Of a stretch of DNA of 64,000 nucleotides, positions 1 through 64,000 are shown one piece after another. Positions within the stretch are counted from its first letter, which is position 1. The number at the start of each line of letters is the position of its first letter. The DNA is from Opitutaceae bacterium (GTDB lineage: Bacteria > Verrucomicrobiota > Verrucomicrobiia > Opitutales > Opitutaceae). The translations under genes and the position numbers were made by a program. Where the stretch lies: the NCBI GenBank assembly GCA_003151515.1, contig PLXS01000041.1, positions 62,001-126,000 on the forward strand, given 5' to 3'. The notes under the pieces were generated by a model that saw only the letters and a program-made list of their open reading frames with translations, did not search any database and was not told the origin of the DNA.

Positions 1-2930
1 GCCAGCAGGCGGCAGACCGCGAGGCCCAGGCCGGTCCCCCGGATGTTGTTCGTGCGCGCCGACTCGAGCCTCGTGAACTTCGTGAAGAGGGTCGCCATCT
101 CGGCCTCAGTCATCCCGGGCCCCTGGTCCTTGACGAAGTAGCGCACGCGGTCGTGGAAGCCGGGCGTCGCGCCGACGACGATCGGCTTGCCGCCGCCGAA
201 CTTGAGCGCGTTCGTGAGGTAGTTGAGCACGATCTGCTGCACCCGCGCCGAGTCGCCGATGAACTGCTCGGGCAGCCGGCCCGCTATCGACACCGAGATG
301 CTGCTTCCCTTGGCGCGGGCCTCCTCGTTCACCATCGCGACGCACTGCTCAAGGAGGATGCGCGGCGAGAACGGCGCCGAGCGAAGCTCGATCTTGCCGG
401 CCTCGATCTTCGAGAAGTCGAGAACGTCGTCGACCAGGGTCGCGAGCAGGTTGGCGCAGCTGTTGATCGAGTCCGTCAGGTGCTTCTGGCGCTCGTCCAT
501 GGGCGTGTCCTCGAAGGCCATGGCGAGGCCCAGGATGCCCTGGATCGGGTTTCGGATCTCGTGGCTCATGTTCGCGAGGAACTCGGACTTGGCCTCGTTT
601 GCCTTCTCGAGCTGCTCGGTCTTCTTCTTGACGAGGGCCTCGAGCCGGACGTTCTGGCGCCTGAGGAACGCGAGGCGCCACTGCAGCGCCCCGTAGAATC
701 CCGCGATCACCAGCAGAGCGAAGCCGACCAGGGCGGGCAGCGTCCGGTACCACGGGGGGAGGACCGTGAACCTCAGGACGGAGGCCGGGCCGGTCACGCC
801 CGCCTCGTTCACCAGGCGAACGGCGAACTCATAGTGGCCGCTCTGGAGGCCGGCCAGGAGGATGTGGTTGTCGCTCGTGGGCGCCGACCATTCGTTGCGG
901 CCCCCGGAAAGGCGCGTCTCGAAGCGGTACGCCGACCTCCGGCTGAATTCCACGGCAGAGAAATCGAAGCCGACGGAGTTCCTGTCGGCGGGAAGCCTCT
1001 CGTCCCGGCCGACGCTCGCAACGAGGAGCGGCGTCCGCGGCGTTTCGACCGGCTCGAGGTGGGCGGGATCGAGCCGGAGCAGGCCGTCGGAACCTCCGAC
1101 CCAGACGATGCCCCGGTTGTCCACGAACAGGGACAATACCTCGCCCAGCTGCGGAAGCCCGGGCACGGCGTACGGCTTCCACGAATTCTGCCCATTCGGG
1201 GCCACAGAGAGGCGTCCTATGACAGGAGTCCTCTTGCCCTCGGTGAAGGGGCTCTCAAAGGCAATCCACATGGAGCCGGATGCGTCGCAGTTCGATGTCG
1301 CAACGGCTGCCGCCTTAGGAGTGGCATCAAGAGGAACCGGCGGCCTTCCAAAGCTCGAGTAGAGCTTTGCGCCGCTCCTCGTGAATACCGCGACGTAGTC
1401 ACCCACCCGCGAAACGGCGACCGGCGTTGTCTCATCCTCTCCCGTTGGTCCGCCGACCCGTATCCGCTGCGCCGGGGCGTTGCCACGCCGGTCAATGAGA
1501 TAGGCGCCATTCTTCAAGGTGGCGACCCAGATGTTTCCATCACGGTCCTCCGCCATGCTTGTCGGCCCGTCGGGAACGTGCCCAAGCATCGCTGCTGCAG
1601 GGCCGTTTTCGGCGTTCTCAACAACCCGCATTACGTCGTAATTGCTAACAGCTATGAAGCTGCCGGGTTCAGTCGACGATGGGCGGAAGAGGAAGATGTC
1701 GTTGATGGAGGAGAACACCTTGTTGACGTGCCCCAGTCCAATCCGGTCGACTCGCTTGAATCCCGCGGCGTAAACCGATCCGTCCTTTGAGGTCTCCAAA
1801 CTGTAATAAAGGCCGGACATCTCCGGCAGAGAGTGAAAAGGTTCGGGTGAGCCGCCGATAGGGAGGCCAAAGACCCCCTCGGCTGTCGCGACTAACACCT
1901 CGTTGCCACATTGAGCGATGCTGTGGCTCGGCTTTCCCGTTAGGCCCTGCCTGGAATCGAATGCCGTAACACCTGAAACAAAATCGATTCGGGTGATGCC
2001 CACAGGAGAGGTGGCCCACACGGCGCCGTCGTGCGCCGTGAAGAGCGAATAGGTGGTTCGTGAGAGCATGCCGGCATCGGTGCTAAGCGTCCTCTTAAGA
2101 TTTCCCGTAGGTCCAACGACGGCTATGCCGCCAAGAACGGTGCCAAGGCAAAGATCGCCATCCGGAAGCCGGCAGACCGAGACCAGGGCGTTCTTGCGGA
2201 TGAACGCTGAAAGCTCAGCACCGAATTCGGTAGCCTTTCCATTCTTGTAGCTGAGCGGGCCGTCCGTGGTGCCGATGAGCCAGCCCGACGGACCGTCCTC
2301 TATCCAGACGGCGCCGGAGTTGTTCAGCGTCTCTGCTGATATGAACTTGTGGAGGCCGTCGGAATTCAGGGACCAGATGCCGGTTGGGGAATGACTGATG
2401 TAGATGATCCCGTCGACCTGGTTCGCAATCAGCCGCCTTGCACCCGGCATATTGTAAACCTTGAACGCGCTCCCATCCCAGAAAAGTATCCTATCCGCTG
2501 TGACAAACACGGCTCCATTTCCAAAAGCCATCGTCTGCCAGACATCGTGCAGCGCGCGGTCCTTCTCTGGAAGAAATCCGACCAATGAGTGATAGGTCGA
2601 CAGGCCCGATTCGGATTTGTCGAAATATCCGACCTCGTTGAAAGCGCCTACCCACAATCGGCCGTTGTTTCCGATGGACAGGCCTCGGACAAGGTAACTG
2701 CCCGGCACCACGTACGCCTTCCATCGCTCGCCATCGAAGCTGAGGACCTCATCGCCGCCGAAATAAAGCACGCCATTGCTGTCCTGGACAGAGATCCAAC
2801 TTTCGGCGCTCGCCCCGATATCGCGCGAAGTGAATCCGGTGACAATCGGGCTTCCCTGCTCAGAACGTCCCGCAATTGGGACCGCCAGTGCGATCACGCA
2901 GAGGCTGAGGGCCGATTTTAGGGGGCTCAC
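1..2930 (-). CDS. Beta-propeller sensor histidine kinase (3' end outside window)
   Basis: One continuous reading frame runs from a GTG at 2930 off the left edge (at least 976 codons). The N-terminus is a signal peptide. About 600 residues of short repeats follow, of the kind seen in two-component-regulator propeller domains (for example VWVGGSDGLLRLDP). Next come a Y_Y_Y-like beta-sandwich, one membrane helix near residue 730, a coiled coil, a HisKA dimerisation helix with the phospho-acceptor in MSHEIRNP (His790) and an HATPase domain whose GTGLGLAV G2 box lies at the window edge. Known relatives sense extracellular ligands and autophosphorylate in the cytoplasm. A receiver or DNA-binding domain may follow outside the window. 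The gene is divergent from the peptide/YcaO locus starting at 3078, so it is a candidate regulator of it (inference). Confidence 0.9.
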   Translation of the reverse strand, partial: MSPLKSALSLCVIALAVPIAGRSEQGSPIVTGFTSRDIGASAESWISVQDSNGVLYFGGDEVLSFDGERWKAYVVPGSYLVRGLSIGNNGRLWVGAFNEVGYFDKSESGLSTYHSLVGFLPEKDRALHDVWQTMAFGNGAVFVTADRILFWDGSAFKVYNMPGARRLIANQVDGIIYISHSPTGIWSLNSDGLHKFISAETLNNSGAVWIEDGPSGWLIGTTDGPLSYKNGKATEFGAELSAFIRKNALVSVCRLPDGDLCLGTVLGGIAVVGPTGNLKRTLSTDAGMLSRTTYSLFTAHDGAVWATSPVGITRIDFVSGVTAFDSRQGLTGKPSHSIAQCGNEVLVATAEGVFGLPIGGSPEPFHSLPEMSGLYYSLETSKDGSVYAAGFKRVDRIGLGHVNKVFSSINDIFLFRPSSTEPGSFIAVSNYDVMRVVENAENGPAAAMLGHVPDGPTSMAEDRDGNIWVATLKNGAYLIDRRGNAPAQRIRVGGPTGEDETTPVAVSRVGDYVAVFTRSGAKLYSSFGRPPVPLDATPKAAAVATSNCDASGSMWIAFESPFTEGKRTPVIGRLSVAPNGQNSWKPYAVPGLPQLGEVLSLFVDNRGIVWVGGSDGLLRLDPAHLEPVETPRTPLLVASVGRDERLPADRNSVGFDFSAVEFSRRSAYRFETRLSGGRNEWSAPTSDNHILLAGLQSGHYEFAVRLVNEAGVTGPASVLRFTVLPPWYRTLPALVGFALLVIAGFYGALQWRLAFLRRQNVRLEALVKKKTEQLEKANEAKSEFLANMSHEIRNPIQGILGLAMAFEDTPMDERQKHLTDSINSCANLLATLVDDVLDFSKIEAGKIELRSAPFSPRILLEQCVAMVNEEARAKGSSISVSIAGRLPEQFIGDSARVQQIVLNYLTNALKFGGGKPIVVGATPGFHDRVRYFVKDQGPGMTEAEMATLFTKFTRLESARTNNIRGTGLGLAVCRLL

Positions 2931-3077
2931 GGTTTTTGCTCTCTGAATCAACTGGCGACAGGTTCGGCGGGCGCTGGCAAGCTCCGCGTGACTACGGGAA
3001 AAGACGTAAGCGCGGGCATCAAATTATGCGATTATTGAATTCGGCTCACGGGGGAGAATTGAGCTAACTCGAGTCCG
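2931..3077. promoter_or_regulatory. Divergent intergenic region, sensor kinase / peptide-YcaO locus
   Basis: This 147-bp gap separates the kinase (minus) from the peptide gene (plus) and must hold both promoters. An AT-rich block at about 3019-3045 stands out from the surrounding GC-rich DNA. A purine-rich GGGGGAGAA lies near 3050-3058 but about 20 nt from the ATG at 3078, too far for a normal ribosome binding site. No clear -35/-10 pair could be assigned. Confidence 0.4.
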
Positions 3078-3260
3078 ATGAAAACCTTCAAACGTACCTC
3101 GTTCGGAATCATATCGAGCCTGCTGCTTGCAGTAGGCCTTGTCGGCGCAGCCCAGCAGCTGGATCCGCTGTCCAAATCGATCGTCATCGACAAGGGCTCA
3201 AACGTCGACATTACGCCGGCGCCAAACTGCGCGGCGCCCTGTTTATTCGCCGACAAATAG
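3078..3260 (+). CDS. Small secreted-type peptide, candidate RiPP precursor
   Basis: The gene encodes 60 residues. The N-terminus has the layout of a signal peptide: Lys/Arg-rich MKTFKR, then a hydrophobic stretch to residue 22, then a GAAQQ cleavage-like site. The remaining ~35 residues are polar and end in TPAPNCAAPCLFADK, with Cys51 and Cys55 separated by three residues. There is no lipobox. It lies 43 nt upstream of a YcaO gene in the same direction. YcaO enzymes of known function modify the backbone amides of peptides or the protein MCR, often at Cys, Ser or Thr, so a precursor role is a reasonable inference. A Sec-type leader is unusual for a cytosolically modified precursor, so it could instead be an ordinary small exported protein. 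I recognise no family. Confidence 0.6.
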   Translation: MKTFKRTSFGIISSLLLAVGLVGAAQQLDPLSKSIVIDKGSNVDITPAPNCAAPCLFADK

Positions 3261-3303
3261 GCTTGGGCCAAGTTGACCGAAAACCCTGACACGAGAGGAT
3301 ACC

Positions 3304-4197
3304 ATGATCAGCGTCGCAGGCTACCGCTACAGAAACGTCCTTGAGACAGAGGGAGGGCCCGTTTCGCGGGTCATGCTTCGCGAGTTCCCGGTCTACGGGC
3401 GCCCGATGTTCCAGGCCAACGCCTGGCTCTCCGACAAGGTCGTGTCGCACAAGAAGAGGTTCGCCCTCTACAGCGACGCGGACGGGACCGGCACCGCCGA
3501 CACGCCCATGGTGGCGCGCTACATGGCCATCTCCGAAACCATGGAGCGCTGGGCATACCGGGTTAAGGTGAGGGCCATGGATCGGGAGCTCTACGGCTTC
3601 GACATCGACGAGTCCTCGAACGGCATGGCCGCGTTCCCCGGGCTGTTCCGCTCTGAGGCCAAGCGGCGCGCGCAGCTGGAGGCGGTCGAGCGGGTGAGCA
3701 TCATCTCGTGGTGGGAGGGTGTGATAGACGGCGAGGTCCGTCAGACCGACTGGCCGGGAATCAGCGCCCTCGTGCTGCCGAGCCCCATCGGATACGGAGT
3801 CACCGTCGTCGCCTTCCGCCAGGTGACCGAGGACTGCTTCGCCTACGGCCAGGGCGCCGCGGTGAACGTCTTCGGCGCATGCGAGAGGGCGGTGATGGAG
3901 CTGGCCCGAAACGAGTATGTCCTGGGCCTTCGGCGGGTGTCCGTGGGTCTGGCCGTGCAGGACAAGCCCTCGGACCTCTTCGAGAGGCGCTGCCTGTTCT
4001 TCTCGACCGCGGAGGGCCACGCGATGTTCCAGGACAGGATCAACCGCAGGATAACCGGGCCGCGTTTCCGCTCGGAAATCATCTGCGACACGGAAATCGA
4101 GGGGCCCTGGTCGGAGTATGCGTCGGTCTGGCGCACGCTTGTCCGGCCTCCGACGACGGAGTTCCTGGTCAACTCGGAGAAGTACTTCTTCTGGTAA
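3304..4197 (+). CDS. Stand-alone YcaO-family protein
   Basis: This 297-residue protein has the three conserved ATP-binding segments of YcaO enzymes. They are an ExxER helix (ISETMER, Glu78-Arg82), the SNGMAA...LEAVER segment (Ser105 to Arg130) and a third helix after GQGAAVN (ERAVMEL, Glu194-Glu199). YcaO proteins phosphorylate a peptide amide to make azolines, thioamides or amidines. This one is shorter than typical RiPP YcaOs, lacks a fused E1-like or leader-binding domain and ends in EKYFFW rather than a Pro-rich tail; no TfuA or E1-like partner is adjacent. The start is supported by GAGAGG 6-10 nt upstream. It follows the small peptide gene and precedes an FMN dehydrogenase. Substrate and product are unknown. 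Confidence 0.85.
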   Translation: MISVAGYRYRNVLETEGGPVSRVMLREFPVYGRPMFQANAWLSDKVVSHKKRFALYSDADGTGTADTPMVARYMAISETMERWAYRVKVRAMDRELYGFDIDESSNGMAAFPGLFRSEAKRRAQLEAVERVSIISWWEGVIDGEVRQTDWPGISALVLPSPIGYGVTVVAFRQVTEDCFAYGQGAAVNVFGACERAVMELARNEYVLGLRRVSVGLAVQDKPSDLFERRCLFFSTAEGHAMFQDRINRRITGPRFRSEIICDTEIEGPWSEYASVWRTLVRPPTTEFLVNSEKYFFW

Positions 4198-4199
4198 GA

Positions 4200-4217
4200 G
4201 GGCTGGGGGCTCAGCCC
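4200..4217 (+). terminator. Short hairpin after the YcaO gene
   Basis: GGGCTG (4200-4205) pairs with CAGCCC (4212-4217) around a six-base loop, starting 3 nt past the YcaO stop codon. No T-run follows, so it may be a weak terminator, an mRNA-stabilising stem or chance. Confidence 0.3.
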
Positions 4218-4273
4218 GGTCCCCGCTAGAGAGGGGCGCGGCGCGCTCGACCATTGGGCCGCCGCGTATCCCC

Positions 4274-4303
4274 TTGCCTGCCTGCCGCCGGCCCGGGCAT
4301 AAT
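4274..4303 (+). promoter_or_regulatory. Possible sigma-70-type promoter before the FMN dehydrogenase
   Basis: TTGCCT (4274-4279) and CATAAT (4298-4303) are separated by 18 nt, about 10 nt upstream of the ATG at 4314. Transcription from here would give an almost leaderless mRNA. The assignment rests on consensus similarity only. Confidence 0.35.
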
Positions 4304-4313
4304 CCGCCCGAAG

Positions 4314-5381
4314 ATGGCTGATCCCCTAGACCTCAGGGATTACGAGCGTATGGCGCCCGGGCACATGTCGGAGATGGCCTGGGAGTATCTGCGGGGCGGG
4401 GCGGGCGACGAGCACACGATCCGCTGGAATGAGGAGGCCTACCAGCGCCTGCGCCTCATGCCGAGGCACCTGGTCGACGTGTCCCGGCTGGACACGGGCG
4501 TCTGCCTGTTCGGCCGCAGGCTGAGCCATCCGGTCATGCTCGCACCGGTGGCCTACCAGAAGCTCATGCACGCCGACGGCGAGCTCGAGATGGTCCGGGG
4601 CGCCGCCGCGGCGGAAGCCGCGGTCGTGCTGAGCAGCTTCTCGACGGTCACGCTCGAGGACGTGGCCGGGGCGGCGAAGACCCCGCTCTGGTTCCAGCTC
4701 TACATCCAGCCGGACCGCGAGTTCACGCGCGGGCTCGTGGGCCGCGCCGAGGCCGCGGGATACGCGGCCCTGGTCGTGACCGTTGACACGCCCGTGCTCG
4801 GGGCCCGCTACAGGGAGCAGCGCATGAGCTTTGCCCTGCCGCCCGGGATGGTGCAGGCGAACCTGAAGGGGCTTGCGACCGCGACGGGCGACCACAGGCC
4901 CAAGGGGCAGCAGATCTACAGCGCCGTCCTGGACCCCAGGCTGTCCTGGAAGGACATAGATTGGCTTCGCTCGATCACACGGCTTCCGATCGTGCTAAAG
5001 GGGGTGCTCAACCCCGATGACGCCGCGCGGGCGGTGGAGGCGGGAGCATCCGGCCTCATCGTGTCCAACCACGGGGGGCGCAACATGGACACGGTTCCGG
5101 CGACGATCGACGCGCTGCCGGCCGTCTCGGCGAGGGTGGCCGGCAGGATCCCGGTTCTCGTCGACGGTGGTATCAGGAGGGGGACCGATGTCCTCAAGGC
5201 GCTCGCGCTTGGCGCTTCCGCGGTGCTCATTGGAAGGCCCTACGTGCACGGACTCGCCATCGGCGGGGCGCTGGGCGTCTGCCACGTCGTGCGGATCCTG
5301 CGCCGCGAGCTCGAGATGGCCATGGCGCTTTCCGGAAGGACGTCGATCGAGCAGGTCGACGCCTCGCTCATCCTGCGCTGA
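4314..5381 (+). CDS. FMN-dependent alpha-hydroxy-acid dehydrogenase/oxidase family
   Basis: This 355-residue TIM-barrel protein belongs to the glycolate oxidase / L-lactate dehydrogenase / mycofactocin MftD family. It keeps the active-site Tyr near residue 25 (EYLRGGAGDE), FQLY (128-130), the flavin-contacting Lys in LKG (229) and the catalytic base with its Arg in SNHGGR (His253, Arg256). It should therefore be catalytically competent, oxidising a 2-hydroxy acid or, as in MftD, a peptide-derived centre. The frame is open to 4254, but MADPLDL at 4314 matches the usual family N-terminus. It follows the YcaO gene by 116 nt on the same strand, so it could be a peptide-modifying dehydrogenase or simple lactate metabolism; the gap with its own possible promoter leaves both open. 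Confidence 0.88.
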   Translation: MADPLDLRDYERMAPGHMSEMAWEYLRGGAGDEHTIRWNEEAYQRLRLMPRHLVDVSRLDTGVCLFGRRLSHPVMLAPVAYQKLMHADGELEMVRGAAAAEAAVVLSSFSTVTLEDVAGAAKTPLWFQLYIQPDREFTRGLVGRAEAAGYAALVVTVDTPVLGARYREQRMSFALPPGMVQANLKGLATATGDHRPKGQQIYSAVLDPRLSWKDIDWLRSITRLPIVLKGVLNPDDAARAVEAGASGLIVSNHGGRNMDTVPATIDALPAVSARVAGRIPVLVDGGIRRGTDVLKALALGASAVLIGRPYVHGLAIGGALGVCHVVRILRRELEMAMALSGRTSIEQVDASLILR

Positions 5382-62196: not shown

Positions 62197-63504
62197 CACG
62201 GCTGTCCAGTTAAGGAGCTAAATGAAATTGGTAAGTCGCTTTTCTTTGGGCAGTAGCACGCTTCCAGACGTGTCCTCGACATGGTTTAAAAAACGGTGGA
62301 TCGGGTCATTCTGGCCCGGAAATGAATCCCGGCCCGACCGTCTTCTCCCAAATTCTCGCAGGGGTCGATCACACGGAGTTGGCGCGGGCGGCGGCCCGAT
62401 TTCCGATGCCGCGTGCTTCGCGGTCCCTCAGCGTTTACGACCACTTCGCTGCGATGGTCTTCGCCCAGTTGACCTATCGCGAGGGTCTGCGCGACATCGA
62501 GGCATGTCTGCGATCGCGGTCGGCGCGGGCTTATCACATGGGCATCCGCGGGCGCGTGACGCGGACGAACCTGGCCTACGCCAACGAGCATCGCGACTGG
62601 CGCGTGTTTGCCGACGTGGCCGCGGTGCTCATGCGTCGGGCGCGGCGACTTTACGCGGACAGCCCTTTCGAACTGGGCCTGGAGGCGGACTTGTTCGCCT
62701 TGGATGCGACGTTGATCGAACTGAGCCTGGCGCTGTTTCCCTGGGCCCGCTGGCAAAAGCAACAAGCCTCGGTGAAGCTCAATGTGCTGTTGGACTTGCG
62801 GGAGGACATCCCCATTTTTGCCAGCCTCCACGAGGGGAATCGGCACGAAGTGGCCTCGCTGGACGAGATTCCTTTGTATCCTGGCAGTGGGTACGTATTC
62901 GACAGAGGCTACTTGGACTTCCTTCGCTTGCATCGGCTGCATGCTGCAGGGGTCTTCTTCGTCACTCGCCTCAAAGCCGGCATCCGTTTTTATGTGGCCG
63001 AGTCGCGGCCCGTCGACGAAACGGTGGGGTTGCGCTGCGATCAAACGATCCGCCTCAGCTCGCGCAAGGGTCGGAGGGACTATCCCGAGCCGTTGCGCCG
63101 GATCAGTTATATCAATCCGGAAGACGGCCAGGCGTTTGTTTTCGTGACCAATTGGTTCGAGCTCTCGGCCTTCACGATCACTCAGACCTACCGTCGCCGG
63201 TGGGGCATCGAGTTGTTTTTCCGCTGGGTCAAGCAGCACCTGCGCCTGCGCGGATTCTTGAGCCACTCGCCCAACGGTGTGAGGGTACAAGTCTGGACCG
63301 CGCTGTGCGCCTACCTGCTCGTGGCGATCGCCAGACGGCAGAAGCATCTCGATGCCTCTCTGTATGAAATCCTGCAAGTCGTCAGCGTCTCCTCGCTCGA
63401 GCAAATACCCTTGGAGGAACTGCTTATGAAAATTGATACAAGAGAACTCCAAGTCGATCTTCCTAAACAGTTGGAGATCAATTGGTCATAACTGGACAGC
63501 CGTG
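62197..63504 (+). mobile_element. Complete IS4-family insertion sequence, 1308 bp
   Basis: Both ends carry the perfect 16-bp inverted repeat CACGGCTGTCCAGTTA (62197-62212 and its complement at 63489-63504), with the 9-bp duplication TCAATAGGG outside. One intact transposase gene fills the element. Identical target copies and an open transposase frame suggest a recent insertion. It lies in the sensor kinase gene, in opposite orientation to it. Confidence 0.95.
62322..63491 (+). CDS. IS4-family transposase (DDE type)
   Basis: A 389-residue transposase. The N-terminus (MNPGPTVFSQILAGVDHTEL) is of the DUF4372 type. The DDE core has DATLIELSL (first Asp), FDRGYLDFLRL (second Asp) and the Y-(2)-R-(3)-E-(6)-K signature in YRRRWGIELFFRWVK. 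The stop codon lies inside the right inverted repeat. It appears intact and could be active. Confidence 0.95.
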   Translation: MNPGPTVFSQILAGVDHTELARAAARFPMPRASRSLSVYDHFAAMVFAQLTYREGLRDIEACLRSRSARAYHMGIRGRVTRTNLAYANEHRDWRVFADVAAVLMRRARRLYADSPFELGLEADLFALDATLIELSLALFPWARWQKQQASVKLNVLLDLREDIPIFASLHEGNRHEVASLDEIPLYPGSGYVFDRGYLDFLRLHRLHAAGVFFVTRLKAGIRFYVAESRPVDETVGLRCDQTIRLSSRKGRRDYPEPLRRISYINPEDGQAFVFVTNWFELSAFTITQTYRRRWGIELFFRWVKQHLRLRGFLSHSPNGVRVQVWTALCAYLLVAIARRQKHLDASLYEILQVVSVSSLEQIPLEELLMKIDTRELQVDLPKQLEINWS

Positions 63505-63637: not shown

Positions 63638-64000
63638 TCGCACCTTCTCGAGGACTCAATCGAATCAAAGCCTTTAGTCTCGATCGAGAATCGTACACAT
63701 GCTCCTCCAATCTCGCAAAACTCCCACGCATGCGAATCCGTCAAGATGCCTAATGAACGGGGGACACCGCTCTTTTTCATGCTAAAGTGACCGATTGCTC
63801 CCAATATCTGCCACTAAACTGTGCAAGCACATGTCTAATCGTGAGATTCAAAAAGAAGCAGCCATGAAACTACATGAAAACGCGTAGAGTTGTGTGCACG
63901 GGTGCAAACGAATCTCGGCTTCCTTATCCGCGTGAATTGAAGCCCGAGGAGACGGGCCGTGACTATCAGTAGGACCATTGGCGGTGCCGACCTACCTTGC
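63638..64000. other. Right-edge region without a recognised gene
   Basis: These 363 bases lie upstream of the interrupted kinase and should hold its promoter. GC content is lower than the chromosome core. No ORF with coding character, tRNA or clear promoter was found; a gene could begin beyond the edge. Confidence 0.4.

Follow-up and report, generated by a model that had tools for sequence, protein, structure and literature searches.

A stand-alone YcaO, its precursor peptide and a divergent beta-propeller sensor kinase: a likely RiPP signalling module of Opitutales

The 64,000-nucleotide stretch analysed here (the window) covers positions 62001-126000 of contig PLXS01000041.1 (C30), one of 42 contigs of the 3.6 Mb genome of an Opitutaceae bacterium. 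It carries, on one strand, genes for a 60-residue peptide, a short YcaO protein and an alpha-hydroxy-acid dehydrogenase dependent on flavin mononucleotide (FMN), and it raises the question of which neighbours belong with a lone YcaO and what they do together. A sequence-only reading had proposed that the three genes produce and oxidise a metabolite or cofactor derived from the peptide. The three open reading frames (ORFs), all on the plus strand, and the CAAPC motif of the peptide were found as it described them; what that reading missed is a divergent sensor kinase and, farther out, a response regulator. The conserved unit, well supported by comparison of gene order and sequence, consists of regulator, kinase, peptide and YcaO, with the peptide-YcaO pair linked to the two-component genes. 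It is likely a signalling module of Opitutales built around a ribosomally synthesised and post-translationally modified peptide (RiPP). We put the probability that it is a self-regulated, ComQXPA-like module, in which the YcaO-modified peptide is sensed by the kinase, at roughly 60%. The features concerned are as follows.

1..2951, minus strand: hybrid sensor kinase, N-terminal 983 of 1283 codons, running past the left window edge (whole gene, L137:5101-8952)
747..2951, minus strand: predicted sensor part of the kinase, 735 amino acids (aa), with an N-terminal helix, a double beta-propeller and an immunoglobulin (Ig)-like domain, assigned by fold match
2993..3008: dyad TACGGGAAAAGACGTA (TAC-N10-GTA), candidate response-regulator site, 85 nt before the peptide start
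3078..3260, plus strand: precursor peptide gene, 60 aa, an ORF with homologous ORFs upstream of YcaO at 78 of 81 loci
3228..3242, plus strand: codons for CAAPC (residues 51-55), which is the common tail motif in its Cys-x-x-Pro-Cys form
3304..4197, plus strand: stand-alone short YcaO, 297 aa, presumed peptide modifier, assigned by PF02624 and fold, present in 20 of 57 genomes
4314..5381, plus strand: FMN-dependent alpha-hydroxy-acid dehydrogenase/oxidase, a bystander (PF01070 FMN_dh, 441.8 bits)
L137:4491-5144: LuxR-type response regulator, beyond the kinase and convergent with it

The main comparison set comprised 81 loci, namely the window and the best 80 of 101 YcaO relatives confirmed in a scan of genome contigs, with the YcaO flanks examined up to 6 kb per locus and gene starts assigned by hand or by profile. 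Some genomes contributed two loci (e.g., L109/L118, L087/L110, L056/L116 and L098/L101), so that loci do not equal genomes, and since both share descent, none of the counts are independent. A candidate precursor was found 5' of YcaO at 78 loci, 72 by a leader profile and six by eye. The profile, trained on 18 copies of which some are identical with genes counted in L044-L057, scored at least 25 bits upstream of YcaO at 64 of the 81 loci, compared to 4.1 bits for the best of 231 control ORFs located downstream. The three loci without a precursor are L098 and two contig ends, L091 and L119, where 10 and 120 nt precede YcaO. In a search of 38 genomes, precursor (E < 1e-5; 1.4e-22 in the source genome) and YcaO agreed throughout, with 14 genomes carrying both and 24 neither; those without YcaO gave no precursor beyond weak matches (E 0.011 in G042, several at 0.01-0.08). 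The peptide and the YcaO therefore belong together, and in this the sequence-only reading was right.

The window peptide has a hydrophobic, signal-like leader (residues 1-31) and a variable tail ending in NCAAPCLFADK. The leader consensus of 20 sequences is MKTxxRxxLGxxSSLLLAAGxxRAAxRLDPL, and 62 of 78 leaders contain a 15-residue stretch with a mean hydropathy of at least 1.6. The tails of Coraliomargarita and Cerasicoccus read TPTCLPTV, VPSCMPTV or PT[YFW]P[TC]EV, and those at the other loci mostly contain CxxPC, CxPC or PC. A Cys lies after residue 22 in 71 of the 78 first-choice precursors. Among 73 precursors with Cys (counting the Cys-bearing copy in two-precursor loci), 48 have a proline directly preceding the final Cys, compared to 7.5 expected from composition. 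The tail unit is repeated in seven precursors: five times in L110, three times in L087, L111, L117 and L121, and twice in L052 and L108. The repeat copies show 154 synonymous differences over 191.7 synonymous sites; the units were picked by amino-acid identity, which leaves the low non-synonymous count uninformative and only the synonymous figure to be read. Tandem precursor pairs occur at L070:5575-5907, L072:4334-4663 and L123:5581-5899, where the second copy keeps the leader and has a tail without Cys.

Across the nine loci of the genus, the proportion of non-synonymous differences (pN) was 0.53 in the core, 0.19 in the leader and 0.12 in YcaO. A conserved leader and variable core encoded beside a modifying enzyme are the arrangement expected of a RiPP, and the presence of YcaO suggests that it modifies the core. 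The leader is more conserved than export alone would suggest, so it is probably recognised by YcaO in addition to being of export type.

The YcaO matched PF02624 at 27.0 bits in hmmscan (cut-off 25.7), and 71 of 77 aligned relatives matched this family at E 0.01. A six-frame family search of the source genome listed no YcaO match at E 0.001, and sequence searches of the PDB returned only a lipase (E 0.47) with the protein and nothing with a 22-row profile. An AlphaFold model based on a 77-row alignment had a predicted local distance difference test (pLDDT) score of 92.6 and a predicted template modelling score (pTM) of 0.90. Foldseek gave four PDB matches with E ≤ 0.001 for this model, all to YcaO proteins: Methanopyrus kandleri YcaO (6ci7, the best, E 5e-8), McbD (6gos) and Escherichia coli YcaO (4q85, twice). 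Fold and family profile together place the protein in the YcaO superfamily. Residues conserved among the 77 rows fall into three segments (S77/E78/E81/R82, E126/E129/R130 and A192/E199/R202), which we take to be the three ATP-binding segments described in the sequence-only reading. The protein ends in YFFW. As that reading had also stated, TfuA (PF07812) is missing, being found in 0 of 13 genomes of the genus, which sets the locus apart from TfuA-dependent thioamide peptides. No E1-like or ocin-ThiF-like partner and no nitroreductase-type dehydrogenase, the marks of clusters for linear azol(in)e peptides (TOMMs), were recognised by eye in 19 neighbourhoods, no profile search having been made. 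Peptide and YcaO together match no RiPP class that we are able to name, as had been noted before.

The kinase gene is divergent from the peptide gene, with a gap of 126 nt. An early suspicion that it was broken in the window was rejected, since the ORF is intact and runs past the window edge. Its Pfam matches over the cut-off are HisKA, HATPase_c, Response_reg and Reg_prop; Y_Y_Y scored 20.4 bits, under its cut-off of 26.6, and an Hpt-like C-terminal stretch was noted by eye, a Pfam match being absent. The model of the sensor part (pLDDT 89.5, pTM 0.87) resembled the outer domains of Bacteroides BT3049 and BT4663 (Foldseek, 3v9f and 4a2m) over its whole length, with a template modelling (TM) score of ∼0.7. 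The protein combines a predicted double propeller, kinase domains and a receiver, as hybrid two-component sensors do. A divergent relative was found at 74 of the 80 other loci, and at 75 of 77 testable loci. Among the six loci without it, four have less than 300 nt of upstream sequence, leaving L074 (1.8 kb) and L092 (6 kb). Where 5.4 kb or more of upstream sequence was available (58 loci), the response regulator lies upstream in 50; it lies downstream instead in L107, L109 and L120; none was found within the available sequence of L092, L104, L108, L115, L118 and L122.

Within the genus, a sensor orthologue (43-100% identity, partial in two) was present in all nine YcaO genomes, and no match in the other four exceeded 25%. 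When 60 kinase cores were placed in a tree, 14 other hybrid kinases split off with 100/99 support, and the opposite side held 40 module kinases together with six peptide-less sister kinases. The module kinases do not form one clade (four label changes); long branches lead to L121 and L114. Five orphan sisters lie at L175:5211-8951 (source genome, contig C6), L177:7443-11306, L178:4966-8718, L179:4780-8568 and L176:5957-9703, in genomes that carry YcaO; they are ∼33% identical to the module kinase in the sensor and have no adjoining peptide, YcaO or regulator. They are possibly second receptors of the same signal.

Other signalling genes were seen near the module. In the source genome, an extra small hybrid kinase (HisKA, HATPase_c, receiver) adjoins the regulator at L137:3064-4374, and similar ORFs occur in L046 and L047. 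Clade-specific signalling genes stand directly 3' of YcaO at L113:7061-7870, L102:7073-7855, L057:6885-9260, L070:7138-8892 and L112:6923-7783, encoding HATPase-only proteins, PAS hybrid kinases or a receiver protein.

A link from the regulator back to the peptide is suggested by the TAC-N10-GTA dyad, which is located in the gap between kinase and peptide in columns conserved in the genus. Own-genus dyads, such as TACGGGAAAAGACGTA, stand at -84 to -88; one clade has CTACCGGAATTCCGGTAG ∼65 nt before the peptide and another TACCTTTTAAAAGGTA-like sites at -87. The dyad occurred before the peptide at 36 of 76 loci, compared to 1.75 expected from shuffles, which preserved base composition only (as did those for the regulator promoters), and alternative spacings of 8, 9, 11 and 12 were found at 0, 1, 1 and 1 loci. 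Where there are multiple dyads, they stand 22 bp apart (L088, L099, L116). The dyad also precedes the regulator gene at 6 of 56 loci, these being all six testable own-genus loci. In four of five genus genomes inspected (the exception is L176) it likewise stands ahead of the orphan sister kinase. On this pattern the dyad is a candidate site of the regulator, and the peptide gene is probably autoregulated.

A regulon search in genome G027 found the 18-bp palindrome exactly at the module only, with a two-mismatch site at an unrelated place; the backwards control gave two places per strand with up to three mismatches. In the source genome the degenerate site occurred at 11 places per strand against 21-22 in the control, so that beyond the module site the sole one worth notice is a one-mismatch copy of the genus form (ACTACATGAAAACGCGTA) at window positions 63869-63886, which has no clear target gene.

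In the mechanism that we propose, YcaO would recognise the conserved leader and spend ATP to activate a backbone amide of the tail; the most likely outcome would be cyclisation of the conserved Cys, mostly preceded by Pro, to a thiazoline. In most species (Coraliomargarita and Cerasicoccus excepted) the leader would direct the peptide to general export, and the trimmed, modified tail would bind the periplasmic sensor of the kinase. Phosphate would then pass from the kinase to the response regulator, which would act at the TAC-N10-GTA sites before the peptide gene and, in the own genus, also before its own gene and that of the orphan sister kinase. The outcome would be feedback as in quorum sensing. 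The genetic linkage of precursor, modifier, kinase and regulator is that of peptide quorum-sensing two-component systems. The sensor is predicted to be periplasmic and most leaders look export-type, and the peptide is probably the ligand of the kinase. The roles of ligand and exported molecule, and the chemistry (perhaps a Cys thiazoline), are read from sequence.

The closest parallel is ComQXPA of Bacillus, in which ComQ prenylates the precursor, the ComP-type sensor is a multi-pass membrane protein and ComA is a LuxR/NarL-type regulator. In both systems a two-component pair of kinase and response regulator accompanies a short, variable-tailed precursor and an enzyme dedicated to its modification. 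Here, however, the enzyme is a YcaO rather than a prenyl transferase, the sensor is a predicted periplasmic beta-propeller rather than a multi-pass protein, the host belongs to a Gram-negative order, and the signal role is proposed. ComP is described as sensing ComX, a modified 10-aa peptide (PMC8895600). A stand-alone YcaO with a short precursor and no E1-like partner is a feature shared with streptamidine and bottromycin (PMC8442711), which differ in belonging to multi-enzyme clusters of Actinobacteria with apparently no tie to a sensor kinase; the present locus has one YcaO and a signal-like leader. Bufferins, RiPPs modified by multinuclear non-haem iron-dependent oxidative enzymes (MNIO), likewise have Cys-containing precursors with Sec-type signal peptide leaders, which are described as rare among bacterial RiPPs (PMC12452194). 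They differ in enzyme family, in a partner protein, in copper binding and in having no kinase. The Bacteroides hybrid two-component systems BT4663 and BT3049 share the sensor fold as well as HisKA, HATPase_c and receiver domains, whereas the module described here has a separate LuxR-type regulator and a link to a peptide and a YcaO.

With respect to chemistry, a thiazoline at the (Pro-)Cys is the most likely YcaO product, judging from the positions of Cys and Pro in the tails. In bottromycin, one partner-free YcaO forms a thiazoline on Cys and another the macroamidine (PMC8442711). The alternative that the YcaO installs a thioamide or an amidine on the same peptide, which would leave the signalling reading unchanged, falls somewhat short of an even chance. 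It draws on the thioamidation of uL16 by E. coli YcaO in an organism without TfuA (PMC13063428), on the involvement of a stand-alone YcaO in amidine formation (PMC8442711) and on the tails that lack Cys; the prevalence of Cys after residue 22, the Pro preceding the last Cys and the bottromycin thiazoline precedent argue against it. In L115 and L120, Thr replaces Cys and could yield an oxazoline.

Whether the peptide is the input or the output of the circuit is a second matter. The kinase might instead detect an outside cue (a glycan, envelope stress or a metal) and in response induce a YcaO-modified peptide whose role lies elsewhere, in antimicrobial action, metal binding or the cell envelope. 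We consider this unlikely. The similarity of the sensor to BT4663, which senses heparin and heparan sulphate according to the title of its structure entry, agrees with such an outside cue, as do the peptide-less sister kinases bearing the same dyad, the CxxPC/CxPC tails, which might bind metal, and the lack of a significant tail-sensor correlation described below. However, in four genus genomes the module sensors are 44-53% identical and their kinase domains 79-83%, whereas the sensors of the orphan sisters in the same genomes are 53-63% and their kinases 60-73% identical. The contrast holds in all six pairs; the comparison omits the orphan of G003 because that genome has a truncated module kinase. 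Rapid divergence of sensor and tail alike is the pattern expected of a changing signal-receptor pair. Moreover, leader and sensor distances were correlated beyond kinase and YcaO (Mantel r 0.34, p 0.001, uncorrected for multiple testing), and no recurring transporter, immunity, glycan or target gene was recognised by eye in 19 printed layouts. Uncorrected Mantel values for YcaO were r 0.11, p 0.025 with the tail and r 0.22, p 0.005 with the leader.

A number of observations weigh against the peptide being the signal of a self-regulated module. The partial Mantel test between tail and sensor was not significant: r was 0.086 (p 0.087, 60 loci), and with more controls 0.035 (p 0.27, n = 60). The solved folds nearest to the sensor are those of the two Bacteroides proteins, of which BT4663 senses heparin. 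Sisters of the module kinase, from the same lineage, occur without peptide or YcaO, even in the YcaO-less genome G012. The unit is also incomplete in places, as L092 has peptide and YcaO without kinase or regulator, and L098 has YcaO and kinase without a peptide, the kinase start lying ∼0.2 kb from YcaO with no peptide between them. No dyad precedes the peptide at 40 of 76 loci, and 50 of 56 regulator genes likewise lack one. The hydrophobic leader is weaker and shorter in Coraliomargarita (L107, L109, L118) and Cerasicoccus (L115, L120, L122), so that the exported precursor of the sequence-only reading agrees with most Opitutaceae leaders and less well with these weakly signal-like ones. Finally, the tails of L112, L115, L120 and one of the two L108 units lack Cys, so that this residue is common in the tails without being universal; the L112 tail has neither Cys nor Thr towards its C-terminus, an argument against a single reaction shared by all.

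The fuller version of the signalling reading would be a cell-to-cell system native to Opitutales (Verrucomicrobiota), with a pheromone made by a single YcaO from a signal-peptide-like, at times multi-copy precursor and a periplasmic beta-propeller kinase as its receptor, signal and receptor diversifying between species; we regard this as evenly balanced. If true, the module would represent a RiPP family that needs very few genes (a peptide and a YcaO), explain what part of the large pool of functionally unassigned stand-alone YcaO proteins does, provide a candidate peptide-pheromone circuit in Verrucomicrobiota, and extend peptide sensing to a fold whose solved examples include a glycan sensor. 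Among the matches listed in searches of an open-licence full-text library, no description of this system was found.

The proposal that the peptide, the YcaO and the FMN dehydrogenase make and oxidise a mycofactocin-like metabolite or cofactor has, in favour of it, the shared strand of the three genes in the window, and is already refuted for the general case and very improbable here, because no dehydrogenase relative lies in the YcaO flanks of any of the 80 other loci (an earlier locus set likewise gave none), a homologue at E 0.001 occurs in only two of 13 genus genomes (the source genome and G011, 54% identity), and the MftD model TIGR03966 scored 234.6 bits, half its cut-off of 470.85. By this score the enzyme does not class as MftD, the one mycofactocin protein searched for, and the gene was rejected as a module partner. 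As regards the dehydrogenase, these results are the second of the two refuting outcomes that the sequence-only reading had named for itself. Its sequence resembles lactate, glycolate and hydroxyacid oxidases. It starts at ATG 4314, with a longer alternative at TTG 4254, and the ORFs that follow it are MraZ-, RsmH- and FtsI-like (named by eye).

Twenty of 57 related genomes, counting the source genome, carry YcaO, as do nine of the 13 genomes of its genus. It was present in 16 of 384 genomes of a class sample and 14 of 387 of a phylum sample, all of the same order (the samples overlap). The carriers are Opitutia/Opitutales wherever the record title goes below class level; some titles give just Verrucomicrobia or Verrucomicrobiia, and one just "bacterium". 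A search of 50,697 phage and 72,556 plasmid records gave no YcaO relative at E 0.001, and none of 19 pattern matches in viral contigs was confirmed as one; carriage of the module by phages, plasmids or viruses was rejected on these searches. A defence role was likewise rejected, as YcaO and kinase matched no PADLOC family and the regulator gave three weak matches only.

YcaO relatives with up to 86% identity come from metagenome-assembled genomes (MAGs) of Opitutaceae bacteria. Named carriers are Cerasicoccus arenae KCTC 12870, C. maritimus NBRC 105382, C. frondis NBRC 105381 and Coraliomargarita sp. SDUM461004, and these named strain records make direct testing possible. Near the right end of the window, at 62322-63491, lies a 389-aa ORF that is transposase-like by eye.

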